NCBI RefSeq assembly: GCF_900129815.1
Contig: NZ_FQWX01000002.1
Coordinates: 62,001-126,000 of the forward strand
Origin: Asaccharospora irregularis DSM 2635
Lineage (GTDB): Bacteria; Bacillota; Clostridia; Peptostreptococcales; Peptostreptococcaceae
DNA length: 64,000 nucleotides
Reading direction: 5' to 3'
Part shown: in pieces, positions 15,781-38,522 of the stretch
Layout of the letters: the number at the start of each line of letters is the position of its first letter
How positions within the stretch are numbered: the stretch's first letter is position 1
The notes under the pieces: model-generated
What the model was told of the DNA's origin: nothing
Databases searched by the model: none
Seen by the model: only the letters and a program-made list of their open reading frames with translations
Made by a program: the position numbers and the translations under genes

Positions 15781-16878
15781 ATGATAAGTAAAAGGATTGG
15801 AATTGTAGAAGATATAGTAGATAAATCTGAAAATCTAGACGATATAAGAGTAAATATAAATGGAGAAGTTCAGAGGGCATATAATTTTCCGAAAATGACA
15901 GGAAAAATAAATATAGGCGACAAAGTACTTTTAAATACTACTGCTGTAGAACTTAGTTTAGGAACAGGTGGGTATCATTTTGTAATATCTAATTTAGATA
16001 ATATGGAATCTAGTCTAACTGAGGGTGGTCATATTATGAAGTTAAGGTATACACCACTACAAGTTAAAGTTGATTCTGTAGAAGAACAGGGAAGTATCTA
16101 TCATGATGAATTTGAAAAATTTGAAAGCCTAGATAATATGCCAGTTGTGGTGGGTACGCTTCATAGTATGTTGACACCGTTTGTAGCATCTTATAAAAGA
16201 AATAATCCAAATAAAAAATTAGTCTACATAATGACTGATGGAGCTGCTCTTCCTATATATTTAAGTAAAAATGTAGAGACTTTAAAAAATAAAGGTTTAA
16301 TAGATAGTACAATTACTATAGGAAATGCCTTTGGTGGAGATTACGAGTGTATAAATATATACACAGCACTTATTACTGCAAAGGAAATTATAAAAGCTGA
16401 CGCTGTATTTGTAGGAATGGGACCGGGAATTGCTGGTACAGGTACTAAATATGGATTTACTGGAATAGAACAAGGTCCAATATTAGATGCTGTAGACAAA
16501 TTAGGAGGAATACCGATAGCTATACCAAGGATGAGTTTTGCAGATAAAAGAGATAGACATAGAGGAATCTCTCACCATAGTTTAACAATACTAGGAGATA
16601 TTGTTAATGTAGCAGTTAATATTCCTATAACATTATATGACGGCGAAAATATGGAAGTAATAAATAGACAAATTAAGGAAAATAAATTAGAAGAAAAACA
16701 TAATGTAAAATATTTAGAGAATTTAAATACAAAAAAAGATTTAGACTACTTCGGACTTAAAGTTAAGAGCATGGGGAGAAATTACGATCAGGATGCGGAA
16801 TTTTTTGAAGCTGCTAGTACAGCTGCATATTACTTAATGGAGGTTTGTGATGATAGTAGAAGAGAAAACAATCAGTAG
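15781..16878 (+). CDS. DUF3866 family protein, unknown function
   Basis: The 365-residue soluble protein starts 4 nt after the previous stop. Conserved-looking blocks are GGHIMKLRYTPLQVKVDSVE (about 80-99), VVVGTLHSMLTPFVASYK, GNAFGGDYECINIYTAL, VFVGMGPGIAGTGTKYGFTG and RMSFADKRDRHRGISHHSL (about 250-270). Several Gly-rich loops and the HRGISHHS block look like an enzyme active site, but no activity is known to me. The gene overlaps the NUDIX gene by 29 nt, so the two are probably co-translated. Assignment to DUF3866 is from pattern memory. Confidence 0.75.
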   Translation: MISKRIGIVEDIVDKSENLDDIRVNINGEVQRAYNFPKMTGKINIGDKVLLNTTAVELSLGTGGYHFVISNLDNMESSLTEGGHIMKLRYTPLQVKVDSVEEQGSIYHDEFEKFESLDNMPVVVGTLHSMLTPFVASYKRNNPNKKLVYIMTDGAALPIYLSKNVETLKNKGLIDSTITIGNAFGGDYECINIYTALITAKEIIKADAVFVGMGPGIAGTGTKYGFTGIEQGPILDAVDKLGGIPIAIPRMSFADKRDRHRGISHHSLTILGDIVNVAVNIPITLYDGENMEVINRQIKENKLEEKHNVKYLENLNTKKDLDYFGLKVKSMGRNYDQDAEFFEAASTAAYYLMEVCDDSRRENNQ

Positions 16879-17395
16879 TGATAAGATATATACAGGTAAA
16901 GTAGTTAGCCTTAGATTAGACACTGTTGAAATCCCTGGGAAGGGATACCAAAAGAGAGAAATAGTAGAACATGGTGGGGCTGTAGGTATAGTGGCTTTGA
17001 CAGAGGATAAAAAGTTAATACTAGTAAAACAATTTAGAAAACCAATTGAAAAGGTAATCTGGGAGTTGCCAGCAGGTAAACTAGAAATAGGAGAAAATCC
17101 TAAGGAATGTGCAATAAGAGAACTAAAAGAAGAGACTGGATATAGTGCTGAAAATATAAAACTAATACACAAATTCTTTACATCTGCAGGTTTCTCAAAT
17201 GAGAAGCTTTATATTTACTTGGCAACTGGATTAATAAAGGGAGATACTCATTTTGATGAAGATGAGTTTTTAGATATTTTTGAAGTTGATTTTAACGAGG
17301 CATATGATTTAGTTTTAAACAATGAAGTCGAAGATGCCAAGACATCTATAGGAATTTTACTTGCTAAGGAATTGATTGAAAAAGAACTTGTATAA
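16850..17395 (+). CDS. nudF: NUDIX hydrolase, ADP-ribose pyrophosphatase type
   Basis: The protein has a complete Nudix box, G-x5-E-x7-REL-x-EE-x-GY, running from the G of PAGKLEIGE to the Y of ETGY (about residues 80-102). Upstream are VEHGGAVGIVAL and VKQFRKPIEKVIWELPAG, typical of ADP-ribose pyrophosphatases that clear free ADP-ribose. Length is 181 from ATG 16850, which has TGGAGG at 6 nt; GTG 16847 is too close to that site. The gene overlaps DUF3866. The same NUDIX-xerD pairing occurs in actinobacteria. Confidence 0.9.
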   Translation: MIVEEKTISSDKIYTGKVVSLRLDTVEIPGKGYQKREIVEHGGAVGIVALTEDKKLILVKQFRKPIEKVIWELPAGKLEIGENPKECAIRELKEETGYSAENIKLIHKFFTSAGFSNEKLYIYLATGLIKGDTHFDEDEFLDIFEVDFNEAYDLVLNNEVEDAKTSIGILLAKELIEKELV

Positions 17396-17414: not shown

Positions 17415-17484
17415 ATAACCTCTCCTTTTTTCACATATTATTTATAACACATATGAAATAATAGGTGGACAAGGAGGAGGTTAT
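17415..17484 (+). promoter_or_regulatory. Hairpin that pairs with the spoIIM ribosome-binding site
   Basis: ATAACCTCTCCTT (17415-17427) is complementary, with one bulge, to AAGGAGGAGGTTAT (17471-17484), which contains the Shine-Dalgarno of spoIIM. In a transcript reading from nudF this could mask the ribosome site. Confidence 0.4.
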
Positions 17485-17488
17485 AAAT

Positions 17489-18094
17489 TTGAGAAGAACA
17501 TACAGAAAAAATAATTTTAGAGAACTGGACAAACCGATAGTAATACTGGGCTTAATTTTTGTAGCGACGGCTATTCTAGGTGCATACCTCAATAAAGTAT
17601 TTATTAATTCAGAAAACACTATATTAGAAGTTATTAATCCAATAGTAAACTACTATAATGGCGATATAAATTTAAAAGAAGCGGTACTATCCAACTTAAA
17701 ATCTGATATAATTTTTATTGTATCTATATGCATATCTACATTATTCGTTGTAACAATTCCTATTTTAATTATCATTTTTATATTAAAAGGAATGTCCGTA
17801 GGATATACTATAAATAGTGCTATAATAACTTTAAAGTTGAAAAGTATAAAGGTAATTTCGTTAATTTTTATTAAAAATATATTTATTATTCCGGCTATGA
17901 TTATACTGACATTGATATCTATAAATTATGCGAAGGAAGTAATTTATGCTTTGAAAAAAAATCGTAAAGATAATATAATATCTTTAATAAAGAGATACTT
18001 ATTAAATGCAACAATTATATTATTAATATCGGTATCGGGGCAAATGATATTAAATACAATAAGTATTGGTATTATTAAGTTGTTAGTCAAATAA
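17489..18094 (+). CDS. spoIIM: Stage II sporulation protein M
   Basis: SpoIIM belongs to the SpoIID-SpoIIM-SpoIIP peptidoglycan machine that drives engulfment; M is the membrane scaffold. The protein of about 201 residues is basic at the N-terminus (RRTYRKNNFR) and has five or so hydrophobic helices: near 20-38, 75-105, 115-145 and 170-200. A GMSVGYTINSAI loop resembles the SpoIIM family. The start is TTG 17489 behind AAGGAGGAGG; the in-frame GTG at 17465 would place that ribosome site inside the gene. It sits between nudF and a xerD-like gene, as in related spore formers. Confidence 0.85.
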   Translation: MRRTYRKNNFRELDKPIVILGLIFVATAILGAYLNKVFINSENTILEVINPIVNYYNGDINLKEAVLSNLKSDIIFIVSICISTLFVVTIPILIIIFILKGMSVGYTINSAIITLKLKSIKVISLIFIKNIFIIPAMIILTLISINYAKEVIYALKKNRKDNIISLIKRYLLNATIILLISVSGQMILNTISIGIIKLLVK

Positions 18095-18105: not shown

Positions 18106-18990
18106 ATGCAGGTCTTAGAAGACTATATAAATTACATAAAAAACAAAAAAAGATTATCTGAAAATACCGTTTTATCGTATTTGACAGATATCAAGAAGTA
18201 TCTAGAATATTTAAATCTAAAAAACATAAAACTAAGTGATATAAGAGAAAATGATATTATAGGCTATCTAATAGAGTTAGAAAAAGCAGATACATCAGTA
18301 GCGACAATTTCTAGAATGATTTCTTCAATAAAATCATTTCATGACTACTTGTTTTTGAGTAATATATGCAGTTCTAACTTGGCAAAAGATATAAAAAAGC
18401 CTAAGGTAAAAAAGGAAGAAGTAGATATTTTGACAGAAGATGAGATAGAGTCACTGTTAAATTTTCCTAAGTTAGATACACCAAAGTTAATAAGAGATAA
18501 GGCTATATTTGAACTTTTATATGGAACAGGAATAAAAGTTTCAGAGCTAGTAAAAATGGATATAAATGATGTAAACCTAGATATGGATTATATTTATTGC
18601 AATAGTGAAAAAAGTAAAAGGATTATACCTATTTCTAATGTAACCAAGTTTTATCTAGAAAAATATATAAATGAATCTAGAGGTGAATTAGTAGGTAAAG
18701 ATGAACATTCACTATTTGTAAGTTCTCTAGGTAAGAGATTTACAAGGCAAGGACTTTGGAAAGTTATAAAAAAATATGCAAGTTTAGCAAATATAAATAA
18801 GAATATAAATCCAAATATGATTAGACATTCATTTGCAATCCATTTATTAAATAAAGGAGCTAATATTTCTGTTGTGAGTAAAATATTAGGGAATACTAAT
18901 TTATCTAGCTTGCAGGTGTACTTGAATCATATAGATCAAAACATCCGAAAGGAAATAAAAGAAAAGCATCCTAGAAAAGATACAATTTAA
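18106..18990 (+). CDS. xerD: XerD-like tyrosine recombinase with altered catalytic residues
   Basis: The 294-residue protein has the SAM-like N-terminal core-binding domain (about 1-85) and the phage-integrase catalytic domain. By alignment to E. coli XerD, the catalytic Arg148 is Lys144 (GTGIKVSEL), His244 is Asn237 (NPNMIRHSF) and His270 is Asn263 (ILGNTN). Arg240 and Tyr272 (QVYLNH) are kept. Three of the conserved catalytic residues are thus replaced, while the rest of the domain is intact and in frame. Position after spoIIM and before deoB matches xerD in relatives. It may be a weak or inactive recombinase, or an accessory partner; a normal Xer protein would then be needed elsewhere. Confidence 0.85.
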   Translation: MQVLEDYINYIKNKKRLSENTVLSYLTDIKKYLEYLNLKNIKLSDIRENDIIGYLIELEKADTSVATISRMISSIKSFHDYLFLSNICSSNLAKDIKKPKVKKEEVDILTEDEIESLLNFPKLDTPKLIRDKAIFELLYGTGIKVSELVKMDINDVNLDMDYIYCNSEKSKRIIPISNVTKFYLEKYINESRGELVGKDEHSLFVSSLGKRFTRQGLWKVIKKYASLANINKNINPNMIRHSFAIHLLNKGANISVVSKILGNTNLSSLQVYLNHIDQNIRKEIKEKHPRKDTI

Positions 18991-19004: not shown

Positions 19005-20177
19005 TTGAGTAGAGTAGTGTGGATGATAATTGACAGTGTAGGAATAGGAGAATTACCTGATGCTCAAGCATTTGGAGACAAAGGTGTTAATACACTAGGA
19101 AACATAGTTAAAAACCATAAAGATATCAAAATACCAAATTTAAGAAAATTGGGTATAGGTAATATAGATGGTGTAGATTTTCTAGAAAATGTAGAAAATC
19201 CGACTGGTGCATTTGGTAAATGTCTTGAGATATCTAAAGGTAAAGATACTACTACAGGCCATTGGGAGATGACAGGGGTTTTAGTTGAGACTCCTTTTAA
19301 GACTTTTGAAAATGGTTTTCCAAAAGAAGTTATAGAAGAATTTGAAAAGAGAGTTGGAAGAAAGGTAGTAGGAAATAAACCTGCATCAGGTACTGTTATA
19401 ATAGATGAATATGGAGAGCATCAAATGAAAACTGGAGATGTTATAGTGTATACATCGGCTGACAGTGTGTTCCAAATAGCAGCACATGAAGAAATAATAC
19501 CATTAGATGAATTATATAAGATGTGTGAAATTGCTAGGGAAATAATGATGGGCGACAACGCAGTGGCTAGAATAATAGCTAGACCATTTATAGGAAAAAA
19601 GACTGGAGAATTTGTAAGAACATCAAATAGAAGAGATTACTCTTTAAGTCCTTTTGAAAAAACAGTTTTAGACAATATAAAAGAGGAAGGGTTAGATGTT
19701 ATAGGCGTTGGAAAAATAGAAGATATATTTAATAAACAAGGTATAACTGAGGCAGTCCATACCAAGGATAATATGGATGGAGTGGATGAAACTATAAAAT
19801 ATATCAAACAAGAAAACAAAGGTCTTATATTCACAAACTTAGTTGATTTTGATTCTAAATACGGGCATAGAAGAGATGTTAAGGGCTACAAGGAAGCATT
19901 AGAGGAGTTTGACAGTAGAATACCAGAGATAATAGCTTCTATGAAAGACGAAGACATCTTAATAATAAATGCAGATCATGGAAATGATCCTACGTATAAG
20001 GGAACAGACCATACAAGAGAATATATACCGGTACTAGTATATGGAAAACAAATAAAAGAAAATACTAACCTAGGAATAAGAGATAGTTTTGCTGATATAG
20101 GAGCAACTGTTGCAGATATACTAGGAGTTAAAATAACTAAAAATGGTACTAGTTTTAAATCACAAATAATGAAATAA
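19005..20177 (+). CDS. deoB: Phosphopentomutase
   Basis: DeoB interconverts (deoxy)ribose 1- and 5-phosphate, linking nucleoside phosphorolysis to central metabolism. The 390-residue alkaline-phosphatase-superfamily enzyme shows the metal ligands in VVWMIIDSVGIGELPDA at the N-terminus, KDTTTGHWEMTG (Thr phosphorylation region, about 83-94), NLVDFDSKYGHRRD near 285 and INADHGNDPTYKGTDHTRE near 325. The start is TTG 19005 behind AAAGGAGGTCATC. It begins a deoB-punA-pdp salvage group; punA follows by 16 nt. Confidence 0.97.
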   Translation: MSRVVWMIIDSVGIGELPDAQAFGDKGVNTLGNIVKNHKDIKIPNLRKLGIGNIDGVDFLENVENPTGAFGKCLEISKGKDTTTGHWEMTGVLVETPFKTFENGFPKEVIEEFEKRVGRKVVGNKPASGTVIIDEYGEHQMKTGDVIVYTSADSVFQIAAHEEIIPLDELYKMCEIAREIMMGDNAVARIIARPFIGKKTGEFVRTSNRRDYSLSPFEKTVLDNIKEEGLDVIGVGKIEDIFNKQGITEAVHTKDNMDGVDETIKYIKQENKGLIFTNLVDFDSKYGHRRDVKGYKEALEEFDSRIPEIIASMKDEDILIINADHGNDPTYKGTDHTREYIPVLVYGKQIKENTNLGIRDSFADIGATVADILGVKITKNGTSFKSQIMK

Positions 20178-20193
20178 TTTGGAGGAGACATCG

Positions 20194-21015
20194 ATGAAGA
20201 ATATGTTTGACAAAATAGAAGAAAGTGCAAAGTTTATAAACTCAAAAATAAAAAATAAACCTGAAATTGGTTTAATACTTGGGTCAGGATTAGGTGTATT
20301 GGCAGATGAAATAGAAAACCCTGTAAAAATAAATTATAGTGATATACCTAATTTCCCGGTTTCTACTGTAGAAGGGCATGATGGATGTTTAGTTATAGGA
20401 ACTCTACAAGGCAAAGAAGTAGTGGCTATGAAGGGTAGATTCCATTATTACGAGGGCTACTCTCAACAAGAAACTACTTTCCCTGTAAGAGTTATGAAAA
20501 GTTTAGGTGTAGATAAGCTTATAGTTACTAATGCTGCAGGAGGATCTAATAAAAACTTCAAACCAGGAAATTTAATGTTGATAAAAGATCATATAAACTT
20601 TAGTGGAAACAATCCTTTAATGGGACCAAATGATAATAGATTAGGTGATAGATTCCCTGATATGTCTAGCGCATATTCACCTAAATATTTAGATTTAGTT
20701 AGAGACTGTGCTAAAGAATTAAATATAGAATTAAAAGAAGGTGTTTATATGTTCTTTAGTGGGCCAACATATGAAACACCAGCAGAAGTAAAATTAGCTC
20801 AAATATTAGGAGCAGATGCTGTAGGTATGTCTACTGCACCTGAAGTGATAGTTGCATCTCATTCTAAAATGGATGTTATAGGTATATCTTGTATAACTAA
20901 TATGGCAGCTGGAATACTTGATCAGCCTTTAAATCATGAAGAGGTTATTGAAACTACTACAAGAGTTAAGTCAGAATTCTTGAGTTTAGTAAAAAATATA
21001 GTAGAGAAATTATAA
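20194..21015 (+). CDS. punA: Purine nucleoside phosphorylase
   Basis: This trimeric-type PNP cleaves inosine and guanosine with phosphate. Motifs are IGLILGSGLGVLADEIEN (about 27-44), GRFHYYEGYSQQE near 85, TNAAGGSNKNFKPGNLM near 115, FFSGPTYETPAEVKLAQILG near 190 and GMSTAPEVIVASH near 213. The length from ATG 20194 is 273. GGAGGAG lies 7 nt before that ATG; TTG 20179 lies upstream of the ribosome site and is unlikely. Operon with deoB. Confidence 0.96.
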   Translation: MKNMFDKIEESAKFINSKIKNKPEIGLILGSGLGVLADEIENPVKINYSDIPNFPVSTVEGHDGCLVIGTLQGKEVVAMKGRFHYYEGYSQQETTFPVRVMKSLGVDKLIVTNAAGGSNKNFKPGNLMLIKDHINFSGNNPLMGPNDNRLGDRFPDMSSAYSPKYLDLVRDCAKELNIELKEGVYMFFSGPTYETPAEVKLAQILGADAVGMSTAPEVIVASHSKMDVIGISCITNMAAGILDQPLNHEEVIETTTRVKSEFLSLVKNIVEKL

Positions 21016-34941: not shown

Positions 34942-34967
34942 TTTTAGCATTGAAGGGAGAGAACAAG

Positions 34968-37900
34968 TTGTATCTAAAAAGATTGGAATTAAAAGGCTTT
35001 AAATCCTTTCCTACAAAAACAGATATTATTTTTAAAGAAGGAATAACGGCTATAGTTGGCCCTAATGGTAGTGGGAAAAGTAATATCTCTGATGCTGTCA
35101 GATGGGTACTAGGAGAACAAAGTATAAAAAGTCTTAGAGGTGATAAGCTAGAAGATGTAATATTTGCAGGAACGGATAATAAGAAACCTATGAATTACTG
35201 CGAAGTTGCACTTACAATAGATAATCAAAACAATGAACTAGGTTTAGAATTTAGCGAAGTAACTATAAAAAGAAGAGCTTACAGAAATGGAGAGAGTGAG
35301 TTTTTTTTAAACAACAAAAGTTGTAGATTAAAAGATATAAAGGAAATATTTTTAGATACAGGTATAGGAAAAGATGGGTACTCCATTATAGAACAGGGTA
35401 AGGTTGATGAAATTCTTAGCAATAACCCTGCGAATAGAAGAAAGGTTTTTGATGAAGCCTGTGGCATATCTAAATATAGGTATAAAAAACAGGAGGCAGA
35501 GAGAAACTTAAAAAATACAAAAGAGAACTTAGAGAGAATTGATGATATATATATAGAAATAGAAAATCAATTAAAACCTCTTTTTAATCAACAGACAAAA
35601 GCGAAAAAATACTTGGATCTTAGTGAAAAACTTAAGGTGATAGAGGTAAACAGTTTTATTAGAGAAATTGAAGCCTTAGAAAAAGAGGTAGAAGAAGTAA
35701 ATAAACATATAGAACTTTTGAATAGAGACTTAACAGAAACAGAAAAGCAAAAAAATGATATAGATAATAAGTTTAGTTTAACTAATAAAGATATAGAGGA
35801 TATAGATGAAGTTATAAGTAAGTCCATAGACTATATAAACTCTATCAAGTCAATAATATCCCAAAAAGAAGGGCAGCTAAATTTAATAAACGAAAGATTA
35901 AAAAACTATAATAATGAAATAGATAGAAAAAATCAGGAAATTTTATCTATAAAAGAAAAAATAAAAAATAATCAATTAGAAATCGAAAGGTTAGATGAAG
36001 ATAAAAATAGCAAAAAAAGTAATATAGATATTCTACAGGAAAAGATAGGAAATATAGAAGAAGGTAATTCTTCTAAGAGAATTGAGATAGAAAAATTAAA
36101 TGAAAGAGTGGAATTTCTAAAAGACGATGTTATAAGAATCTTAAATAAAAAGCAAGAGTTGAGCAACAAGATATCAGCACTAGACGCGAACAAAGAAAAT
36201 ATAAAATCAAGGGTAAATAGTATAAATCAAGAGATAAAAGATATAAATAATGATAAACAGGAAAAAAATAATACTTTAAGCAGTATTGAACTTGACTTTA
36301 AATCCAAACAAGAAAACTTAAATAATCTGAATATAAAGAATAATAATCTTAAAGAAAGCTTAGAAAATTTCGTTTATGAAAACAGCAGAATTGAAAAAAA
36401 TATTCAAGATACAAAGTATACTTTAAATGATTTACAATCAAAACTTAATATATACATAGAGATGGAAAATCATTATGAAGGGTTTAATCGTGGTGTTAAA
36501 GAAGTATTAAAAAATAAAAGCTTAAATGGAATACATGGGGCTGTAGGACAGATTATAAATGTATCTTCAAAGTATGAAAAAGCAGTAGAGGCAGCTCTTG
36601 GTGCTACTATGCAAAATGTTATAACAGATGATGAACAAAGTGCAAAAGTGGCGATAAACTATCTAAAGAAAAATAATTTAGGAAGAGTGACGTTTTTACC
36701 AGTAAATATAATAAAGGGAAATAAAATAGATAAAAAAACTATAAAATCTAACGCCAAGTATATAGGTTTGGCCAGTGACTTAGTATCCTTTAATGATAAA
36801 TACAAAAACATTATAGATAGTATATTAGGCAGAACAATTATAATAGAAAATATAGATGAGGCAATAAAGTTTGCTAGAGAGACAAACCATAGGTTTAAAG
36901 TTGTAACCTTAGATGGGGAAATATTAAATCCAGGAGGGGCTTTAACTGGTGGAAGTCTAAAGGCAAGTGGAAATATATTATCTAGAAAAAGACTTATAGG
37001 TGAATACACAGATAATATAAAGACTTTAAAAGAAAAGGGAAATTGTCTTTTAGAGGAAAAAGAGATAATAAGTAACAATATAAACAATGTAAATACGGAA
37101 TTAAAGGTAATAGATCAAGAGTTAAAAGAATCTGAAAAGCTTATAATTATGCAAAACTCTAATATCCAAAGACTAAAAGACGAAATAGAATCATTGGATA
37201 ATGTTTTGGTTAAGCTAGAAAATGAAAAAAAAGGACTAGACTCAAACTTAAGTTACACATTAGAAAAGATAGAAGTTGTTAATAATCAAGTGACAGATAT
37301 AGAAGATAAACACAAGGAAAACCAGGAGAATATACAGAATTTAAGTGAAAAACTTAAAGAGTTAAACAAGGTATATGAAGATGAAAAGTCTAATTTTGAT
37401 GGGTTAAATCTTGAATTAGTTAAAAGTAAACAAATATATGAAGGCTTGATAAAGGAAAAAGAGAGAATAGAGACTGAGACTAACGATTTACAAGAAAGAT
37501 TGACAAACTATGAAAAATCTTTGGTTAGTAAAAGGTTAGATATAGCAAAGCTTGAGGAAGAGTTAGTTATTGAAACTACTGAAAAAGAAAACTTAAAGGA
37601 ACAGTTAGGTCACAACAATAGCAATTTGGAAACTAAGAAGGTCGTAAAAGAGGATTTAAAATCTAGATTGGAAGATTTCAATAAAAACTTAAAGTCTATA
37701 GATAGACAGTATATGGAACTAAAAGAAAGCTTATTCAAGGTAGAAGGAAAACTAGAGAGATTAAGATCAAACCAAGAAACTTACATTAATAAGCTTTTTG
37801 AAAAATATCAAATGACTTTTGTTCAGGCTATAGAAATTAGAGAAGATAAGTTAGAAATAGACAAGAAGCAATTAGAGCGCCTAAGAATGGAAATAAGAAG

Positions 37901-38522
37901 CTTAGGAAATGTAAACATAGATTCTATAAAAGAATATGAAGAAGTAAAAGAAAGATATGACTTCTATAGTGAACAAAAACAGGATTTAGAAGAGTCTATA
38001 CAAGCTATAGAGCGAATAATAAGTGAATTAGAAGAGAGTATGAAATCCGAATTTAAGATTCAATTCAATGCAATAAATGAAAACTTCAAATATGTATACA
38101 AAAGATTATTTGGAGGGGGATGTGGAGAACTGACTATTTTAGATGAGGAAAATATACTAGAAAGTGATATCGAAATAACAGCCCAACCACCTGGTAAGAA
38201 GATGAAGAACTTGAATTTATTATCAGGAGGAGAAAAAGCTCTTACTGCTATAAGCGTATTATTTTCAATACTTTTGGCTAAGCCTACCCCGTTTTGTATA
38301 TTAGATGAAATTGAGGCTCCGCTTGATGATGTAAATATATTTAGGTTTGGTGAATTTTTAAGAGAGTTATCAGAGGATACTCAGTTTATATCTGTAACGC
38401 ATAGGAGAGGTACTATGGAGGTTGCAGACTATATATACGGTGTTACTATGCAGGAAAAAGCAATATCGAAGGTTATAAGTTTAAAACTAAAAGAAGCTCA
38501 AGAGATTACGGATGTTATATAG
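34968..38522 (+). CDS. smc: Chromosome segregation protein SMC
   Basis: SMC forms the ring-shaped condensin with ScpA and ScpB. The 1184-residue protein has Walker A VGPNGSGKSNISDAVRWVLG (about 31-50), a Q-loop, and IEQGKVDEILSN near 144. Two long coiled coils flank the hinge (about 500-660; GAVGQIINVSSKYEKAVEAA and TLDGEILNPGGALTGGS). The C-terminal head has LLSGGEKALTAISVLF (about 1084-1099) and Walker B FCILDEIEAPLDD. TTG 34968 behind AAGGGAGAG is the likely start; the TTG at 34950 precedes the ribosome site. scpAB are not in this window. Confidence 0.97.
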   Translation: MYLKRLELKGFKSFPTKTDIIFKEGITAIVGPNGSGKSNISDAVRWVLGEQSIKSLRGDKLEDVIFAGTDNKKPMNYCEVALTIDNQNNELGLEFSEVTIKRRAYRNGESEFFLNNKSCRLKDIKEIFLDTGIGKDGYSIIEQGKVDEILSNNPANRRKVFDEACGISKYRYKKQEAERNLKNTKENLERIDDIYIEIENQLKPLFNQQTKAKKYLDLSEKLKVIEVNSFIREIEALEKEVEEVNKHIELLNRDLTETEKQKNDIDNKFSLTNKDIEDIDEVISKSIDYINSIKSIISQKEGQLNLINERLKNYNNEIDRKNQEILSIKEKIKNNQLEIERLDEDKNSKKSNIDILQEKIGNIEEGNSSKRIEIEKLNERVEFLKDDVIRILNKKQELSNKISALDANKENIKSRVNSINQEIKDINNDKQEKNNTLSSIELDFKSKQENLNNLNIKNNNLKESLENFVYENSRIEKNIQDTKYTLNDLQSKLNIYIEMENHYEGFNRGVKEVLKNKSLNGIHGAVGQIINVSSKYEKAVEAALGATMQNVITDDEQSAKVAINYLKKNNLGRVTFLPVNIIKGNKIDKKTIKSNAKYIGLASDLVSFNDKYKNIIDSILGRTIIIENIDEAIKFARETNHRFKVVTLDGEILNPGGALTGGSLKASGNILSRKRLIGEYTDNIKTLKEKGNCLLEEKEIISNNINNVNTELKVIDQELKESEKLIIMQNSNIQRLKDEIESLDNVLVKLENEKKGLDSNLSYTLEKIEVVNNQVTDIEDKHKENQENIQNLSEKLKELNKVYEDEKSNFDGLNLELVKSKQIYEGLIKEKERIETETNDLQERLTNYEKSLVSKRLDIAKLEEELVIETTEKENLKEQLGHNNSNLETKKVVKEDLKSRLEDFNKNLKSIDRQYMELKESLFKVEGKLERLRSNQETYINKLFEKYQMTFVQAIEIREDKLEIDKKQLERLRMEIRSLGNVNIDSIKEYEEVKERYDFYSEQKQDLEESIQAIERIISELEESMKSEFKIQFNAINENFKYVYKRLFGGGCGELTILDEENILESDIEITAQPPGKKMKNLNLLSGGEKALTAISVLFSILLAKPTPFCILDEIEAPLDDVNIFRFGEFLRELSEDTQFISVTHRRGTMEVADYIYGVTMQEKAISKVISLKLKEAQEITDVI

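Follow-up and report, generated by a model that had tools for sequence, protein, structure and literature searches.

XerD is widely annotated as, and assumed to be, a recombinase for chromosome dimer resolution. Among the described systems, it is a partner in XerCD–dif of Escherichia coli and Bacillus subtilis; XerS/difSL, XerH/difH, and archaeal XerA each use one protein with a full active site and a near-palindromic site. The recombinase fold is also that of MrpR/YopR, the master repressor of phage SPbeta. In B. subtilis, XerD unloads SMC at the terminus, as stated in the passages of PMC12322038, PMC8357415, PMC8242196, and PMC11898615 that refer to Karaboja et al. 2021. For the XerCD system, Kono et al. 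2011 (PMC3025954) give a predicted dif in 97 of 100 Firmicutes, with failed predictions for Clostridium perfringens, C. beijerinckii, and Lactobacillus helveticus; the word "difficile" is absent from the main text.

The window analyzed here—a stretch of 64,000 nucleotides from Asaccharospora irregularis DSM 2635—carries a xerD orthologue with a degenerate active site and the following further genes:

16847..17395, + strand: NUDIX hydrolase gene of the conserved xerD neighbourhood (PF00293, synteny)
17465..18094, + strand: spoIIM, 11 bp upstream of xerD (PF01944, synteny)
18106..18990, + strand: xerD orthologue with degenerate active site, 294 aa, ATG start (PF02899 and PF00589, alignment)
19005..20177, + strand: deoB (presumed name), 14 bp downstream of xerD (PF01676 metalloenzyme, synteny)
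20179..21015, + strand: purine nucleoside phosphorylase (presumably punA), end of the syntenic block (PF01048, synteny)
34950..38522, + strand: smc, the condensin on which an SMC-unloading XerD would act (PF02463 and the PF06470 hinge)

Locus identity and active site of the window XerD

The window XerD occupies the orthologous position in nudix–spoIIM–xerD–deoB–punA, a gene order which we take, from B. subtilis, to be the ancestral xerD locus. This identity is supported by the deoB and nudix neighbours found in other families. By Pfam, the protein consists of an N-terminal SAM-like domain and a C-terminal tyrosine-recombinase domain. Its score of 282.8 bits for TIGR02225, the NCBIfam XerD equivalog, lies below the cut-off of 329.6 bits, which is exceeded in just 4 of 14 control genomes. 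Across 79 loci of the family Peptostreptococcaceae—named and unnamed records with flanks of mostly 1.5 to 3 kb—spoIIM adjoins xerD in 69, and all four neighbours are present in 47. A first-pass annotation of this DNA had suggested a protein "repurposed next to spoIIM"; repurposing fits the data presented below, but spoIIM is the usual neighbour of xerD in this family and, hence, the adjacency by itself is no pointer to sporulation.

By sequence, the closest solved relative is E. coli XerD (1a0p, E 1.1e-44), to which the motifs align ungapped. The positions of the active site are as follows:

18535..18537, + strand: Lys144 codon, at the position of E. coli XerD Arg148 (GLRVSEL to GIKVSEL)
18604..18606, + strand: Ser167 codon, at the position of the beta-hairpin Lys172 (sequence and alignment)
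18814..18816, + strand: Asn237 codon, at the position of His244 (SPHVLRH to NPNMIRH)
18823..18825, + strand: Arg240 codon, at the position of Arg247, kept (SPHVLRH to NPNMIRH)
18892..18894, + strand: Asn263 codon, at the position of His270 (LGHSDL to LGNTNL)
18919..18921, + strand: Tyr272 codon, at the position of the nucleophile, kept (QIYTH to QVYLN)

Arg240 and Tyr272 are window numbers, whose E. coli counterparts we take to be Arg247 and Tyr279; the beta-hairpin lysine is presumably Lys172 of E. coli. A gap of one residue lies close by in the hairpin alignment; Ser167 also lies five residues before the invariant Arg172 of the window protein, the same distance. Where a complete catalytic set reads R-K-H-R-H-Y, the window XerD reads K-S-N-R-N-Y—a replacement of 4 of 6 positions. 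The first-pass annotation was right and understated in this respect: its substitutions Arg148 to Lys144, His244 to Asn237, and His270 to Asn263, as well as the kept Arg240 and nucleophile Tyr272, are borne out by the alignment to 1a0p, and the fourth replacement, Lys172 to Ser167, had been missed. The frame is intact, as had been stated (ORF 18106–18990, 294 aa).

An AlphaFold model of the window XerD (mean pLDDT 89.1, pTM 0.63) keeps the two-domain tyrosine-recombinase fold, and its nearest fold neighbours among those listed are XerD, XerA, XerH, and other tyrosine recombinases. It superposes on 1a0p with Z 18.6 and an rmsd of 14.1 over 244 residues and on the XerD C-terminal domain alone (5dcf) with Z 18.6 and an rmsd of 2.7 over 157 residues. 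The large rmsd to 1a0p points to a different domain arrangement. As the fold is kept and the motifs are ungapped, it appears unlikely from this model that substitute catalytic residues are supplied from elsewhere in the protein.

Conservation and selection within Peptostreptococcaceae

A search of 71 family genomes recovered a xerD orthologue in 61 of them, with 45 to 76% identity (own copy aside); it was not found in nine genomes of genus g13 and in the incomplete genome G024. Mapping the six catalytic positions in these relatives, as had been proposed, shows both histidines to be missing in 61/61 orthologues. Position 237 is Thr in 32, Ser in 26, Arg in 2, and Asn in 1, and position 263 is Asn in 60 with a single Ser, so neither is ever His. 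Position 144 stays basic (51 Lys, 10 Arg). The hairpin position 167 holds Lys in 4 of 61 and is among the most variable positions of the protein (97th percentile). Arg240 and Glu147 are present in 61/61 and Tyr272 in 60/61, and Arg172 is invariant. Counted over the core R/H/R/H/Y, 50 genomes carry three replacements, 10 carry two, and one carries four. Named records with the same state include Clostridioides difficile (K-C-T-R-N-Y), Romboutsia, Intestinibacter, Terrisporobacter, and Peptacetobacter.

The frames are open over at least 291 aa in 61/61 orthologues, and NG86 omega has a median of 0.093 and a maximum of 0.185 over 238 family pairs (80–98.5% protein identity, dS below 2), which include near-identical species and are not independent of each other. 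Within the family as sampled, neither histidine has been retained, and the gene stands under purifying selection; degeneracy, selection, and synteny are all direct results of the computation. Simple gene decay, against which the intact frame had already been held, is rejected on the basis of the omega median and the conserved synteny.

A strict link to sporulation is rejected as well: genera g7, g10, g11, and g12 keep a degenerate XerD with no SpoIVA found in them, which speaks against a role confined to sporulation. Genus g13, which has no xerD, likewise yielded no SpoIVA.

XerD beyond the family

In xerD loci of other families of the order, R-H/Q-R-H-Y is kept many times (e.g., in families f3, f4, f5, f6, f8, and f11). 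Family f10 shows R-Q-R-F-Y and R-H-R-Y-F—the latter with Phe for the nucleophile—and family f2 shows K-H-R-Y-F, K-H-R-I-Y, and K-S-R-N-Y. The hairpin lysine is kept in 5 of 89 sampled loci of the order outside the family, a sample partly chosen for low scores, so that its frequencies are not rates. On a tree of 141 rows, the family forms one clade (32 rows, SH-aLRT 99), and by parsimony the state of at least two replaced residues of R/H/R/H/Y needs at least nine changes; this tree was quickly built, leaves 47 of 138 inner forks open, and carries long-branch warnings. Seventeen rows were dropped before the final alignments (L139, L141, L145–L149, L151, and L153–L155, together 11, and the 6 of L058–L063), being paralogues without xerD neighbours, outliers, or a fragment. 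Among them, L141 is a partial XerD (R-V-Q-R-H-Y), and L058 (R-D-H-R-H-Y) and L059 (R-K-H-R-H-Y) have one xerD neighbour each.

For other orders of the class, a search of 30 genomes supplied 20 loci from 20 of them; the remaining 10 genomes, whose best hits were weaker (E ~1e-71 or higher), were left out. At least two of the five core residues are replaced in 5 of these 20 XerD loci, and a recognised xerD neighbour is present in 11. Locus L352 reads K-S-N-R-N-Y like the window XerD and has no recognised xerD neighbour. Judging from these alignments, loss of catalytic residues in XerD is recurrent in the class.

The lexA-linked recombinase and other recombinases of the genome

The search for other tyrosine recombinases, likewise proposed earlier, gave six PF00589 matches in the genome (an assembly in 76 contigs), the window XerD included. 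The other five are:

L004:994-2136: lexA-linked recombinase, 380 aa, upstream of lexA (PF01726/PF00717)
L002, on a 7.7-kb contig: recombinase, 328 aa, R-K-H-R-H-Y, beside what reads like a restriction-specificity gene
L003: integrase-like protein (PF00589)
L005:1153-2118 (G000:C39): recombinase-fold protein, 321 aa, downstream of a UvrD_C-domain gene
L006: fragment of 69–77 aa (PF00589)

None of the four that were scanned—the fifth is the fragment of 69–77 aa—reaches the cut-offs of XerC, XerD, or XerS. L002 passes the XerA-type cut-off (247.1 versus 220 bits). In L005, the first Arg is replaced by Leu, the first His by Arg, and the second His by Trp, with Lys and Tyr kept; of 8 complete family genomes, 6 contain PF00589 hits in frames of 306–314 aa with comparable scores.

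The lexA-linked protein is a single recombinase with a complete active site that is conserved across the clade: R-K-H-R-H-Y is found in 30/30 aligned sequences, and the protein is present in 37 of 41 genomes examined, where the 36 other genomes show 57 to 86% identity to the own copy. It reaches 150.6 bits for the XerS equivalog, short of the cut-off of 267 bits. In a PDB profile search, its score is 83.9 bits against E. coli XerD and 25.1 bits against XerH. G034, which is without the lexA-linked gene, encodes a relative of the protein at 35% identity.

A candidate dif site upstream of the lexA-linked gene

De novo comparison of 30 loci revealed a 36-bp near-inverted repeat upstream of the lexA-linked gene in 17 (families f1, f2, f3, f4, f9, and f11); L180 has almost no upstream DNA and could not show a site. 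In the genome under study, it lies outside the window:

C37:118628-118663 (L004:481-516): candidate dif TAACTAGTCTTTAAATGTATATTTAGGGAATAGTTA, 477 bp upstream of the lexA-linked gene
L004:927-941: lone half-site-like stretch AAGGAATAGTTGAAC, possibly autoregulatory, with the start of the lexA-linked recombinase ~50 bp downstream

An order-wide pattern search with at most three mismatches finds the site in 228 of 297 genomes, which represent 106 of 135 genera, mostly once per genome, and the reversed control pattern in 2 of the 297 (counted by eye). The pattern is unmatched in the remaining 69—including G074, which has the lexA-linked gene—and matched in 1 of 5 genomes of family f5. It has no match in the window, and viral contigs have no exact match to one form of the site. 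Outside the order, 20 of 371 genomes match a relaxed pattern versus ~29 for the reversed control (by eye), which is noise; in the draw that included these genomes, 19 of 20 order genomes match.

In 7/7 single-contig genomes from three families, the maximum of the cumulative GC skew lies 278 to 2710 bp from the site, as measured over 200 to 400 kb per genome with the site taken beside the recombinase gene or from the pattern search. The skew changes sign across the site, between values of about +0.16 to +0.20 and −0.15 to −0.20. Dyad symmetry amounts to 14/18 for the own site and 15/17 for the sites of g13 and f10 that were checked, as compared with 9/14 for B. subtilis dif and 8/14 for E. coli dif. 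The lexA-linked system thus has a near-palindromic site at the switch of GC skew. The site occurs in 36 of 37 genomes with the lexA-linked gene and in 0 of 4 without it (a hand count that is not corrected for ancestry). In genus g13, which is without xerD, the site is present in 9/9 genomes and the lexA-linked gene in 3/3 tested. The Firmicutes XerCD dif consensus, searched without a positive control, has no match with at most three mismatches in 36 genomes, two of which match the reversed control.

What comes directly out of this computation is the site, where it lies, and that it co-occurs with the lexA-linked gene. On the strength of its upstream position, order-wide presence, skew switch, symmetry, and gene co-occurrence, and with the XerCD-type dif not found, it is very probably the dif of a single-recombinase system.

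Three observations stand beside this. First, G365, G438, G520, G547, and G563, none of which belongs to the order, carry palindromes akin to the site, AACTATTCGCAAAACTTGTGTTTTGCGAATAGTT among them—near-perfect in G365 and G563—which are possibly the dif of related single-recombinase systems. Second, G028, G040, G051, G200, and G214 match the dif pattern more often than expected for a single site; in G200 and G214, for example, the additional matches are palindromes with different centres and may belong to elements or plasmids that make use of the recombinase. Third, for G081 (family f12, 100% complete), neither the lexA-linked recombinase nor the site was found; its sole TIGR02225 match is a XerD with R-Q-Q-R-H-Y (L327).

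A trace of the site can be recognized in the literature. In a C. difficile one-hybrid study (PMC6222199), ATTTAGGGAATAGTTAGTGATA upstream of the tyrosine recombinase CDR20291_1855 is a predicted RR_1586 site. Its letters match the right arm and flank of the site in L160, and it reads as one arm of the candidate dif. The open-access texts searched yielded no description of the lexA-linked recombinase with its dif, and the pair appears to be undescribed.

What XerD might be retained for

We propose that, in this order, dimers would be resolved by one tyrosine recombinase alone, whose gene adjoins lexA and which would act on a near-palindromic dif of ~34–36 bp at the terminus. XerD at the ancestral locus would therefore have been freed from cutting DNA there. 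Its catalytic set may then have been lost—most deeply in Peptostreptococcaceae and several times elsewhere—with the protein kept as a sequence-specific DNA-binding protein of recombinase fold. The most likely retained job would be the unloading of SMC condensin at the terminus, as for B. subtilis XerD. The parts of this proposal differ in strength. The sequence data lend good support to a degenerate XerD that coexists with a separate single-recombinase dif system. We are highly confident that the lexA-linked protein recombines the candidate dif, and a degenerate XerD that cannot cut is to be expected with nearly the same assurance. That this XerD unloads SMC is a balanced proposition, and we give the explanation as a whole an even chance of being right. 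Its extension to the entire order—dimer resolution by the LexA-linked recombinase and a XerD that repeatedly became a conserved, non-cutting manager of SMC at the terminus—is tentative and falls slightly short of that.

The first-pass annotation had considered a XerD that is inactive or one that acts asymmetrically with a separate Xer partner. Inactivity fits the 4/6 replaced positions. Asymmetry finds no support, as the recombinase whose active site is complete comes with a dyad-symmetric site of its own at the skew switch and genus g13 keeps this site in 9/9 genomes without xerD. XerD is hence not needed for the persistence of the site, which suggests that it is kept for something else. An SMC on which it could act is encoded in the same window (34950–38522).

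Binding sites of XerD around the terminus give a mixed picture, and no convincing cluster emerged, which weighs against the SMC-unloading part. The XerD half-site motif TATTATGT[TA]AA occurs 11 times versus 4.2 expected in 400 kb of G010, 5 times versus 3.2 in G071, and 0 times versus 0.2 in G228. The shorter ATTATGT[TA]AA is found 37 times within 50 kb of dif and 17 times at 50–95 kb in five family genomes, counts which are uneven between genomes and belong to a motif chosen after seeing the data; in two genomes of other families, the corresponding numbers are 4 versus 8. A de novo 10-mer search for XerD sites had a top score of 4.10, no better than the permuted tops of 3.75 to 4.35.

Several findings speak against the proposal. 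Other families of the order keep R-H-R-H-Y despite having the lexA-linked system, and the dif pattern is unmatched in 4 of 5 class genomes with a degenerate XerD (the fifth has one match with three mismatches, at chance level); hence, loss of catalysis does not appear to be tied to the lexA-linked system. The complete absence of xerD from g13 means that its job is dispensable there. L002 is a second recombinase with R-K-H-R-H-Y, and the site pattern is unmatched in 69 of 297 order genomes. Finally, Tyr272 and Asn263 are each kept in 60/61 orthologues, more than expected for a freely drifting pocket, and altered chemistry is therefore possible.

A conserved tyrosine could also belong to a gene-regulatory DNA-binding protein—a repressor like MrpR of SPbeta—or to a general nucleoid protein, a role that we regard as unlikely for the window XerD. 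MrpR/YopR and phi3T SroF are among the fold neighbours of the model (8a0a_A, Z 13.6, rmsd 15.8, 248 aligned), and the window XerD shows the MrpR-like combination of fold, catalytic loss, and kept tyrosine. According to PMC10516654, MrpR has lost the first Arg (to Val/Ser), His (to Asn), and His/Trp (to Val), and its tyrosine, which is kept, is reported there as crucial for DNA binding. Such a role would explain the conserved Tyr272. On the contrary, MrpR is a phage protein with the hairpin lysine kept, whereas xerD resides at an ancestral housekeeping locus.

The altered chemistry would require that the window XerD is still a recombinase, with Lys for Arg and Asn for the second His, and that it acts on an unknown site. 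Arg240, Glu147, and Arg172 are invariant and Tyr272 is nearly so, residue 144 stays basic, and Asn263 is nearly fixed, all of which would suit such an enzyme. With 4/6 catalytic positions replaced, position 167 at the 97th percentile of variability, and Phe for Tyr in related lineages at the same locus, we nevertheless consider it improbable.

Still less credible is a purely architectural XerD that would join the lexA-linked recombinase at dif in a hetero-tetramer in which one subunit type cuts. A non-cutting subunit could in principle bind two of the four arms, and the dif arms are not fully identical (14/18 symmetric in the own site). However, the arms are nearly identical in g13 and f10 (15/17) when compared with B. 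subtilis and E. coli dif, and the g13 genomes retain the site with no xerD at all. A decaying relic can be dismissed: xerD was not found in g13 and has no clear match in several small-genome genera, but the full-length frames in 61/61 orthologues, the low omega, and the conserved synteny contradict decay in this family.

Should the SMC-unloading proposal hold, these XerD proteins would be natural separation-of-function alleles, and the conserved role of XerD at the terminus would not be recombination in this group. Natural variants would then separate XerD recombination from its proposed role in SMC unloading. The reading of XerD as a dimer-resolution recombinase is probably wrong for the whole family, C. 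difficile included. The proposed dif would mark the terminus at kb precision and makes dimer resolution in these anaerobes directly testable.

Comparison with known systems

With XerD of XerCD–dif from E. coli and B. subtilis, the window XerD shares the fold, the length, and the N-terminal domain; it differs in the replaced catalytic residues (4/6) and in its equivalog score (282.8 versus 329.6 bits). The system differs as well, as no XerC was recognised in this genome among the 4 of 5 other recombinases that were scanned. MrpR/YopR resembles the window XerD in the recombinase fold, the replaced catalytic Arg and His, and the kept Tyr, but it is phage-borne and below 25% identical to recombinases (PMC10516654), whereas the window XerD is a chromosomal orthologue. 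The lexA-linked system is similar to XerS/difSL, XerH/difH, and archaeal XerA, with one full-active-site protein and a near-palindromic site that often lies beside its gene and at the skew switch, although the protein itself is not XerS by NCBIfam (150.6 versus 267 bits). For the SMC-unloading XerD of B. subtilis, the window gene is the orthologue and smc is located in the same window—and a nonrecombinational role of this kind would probably tolerate the loss of catalysis.
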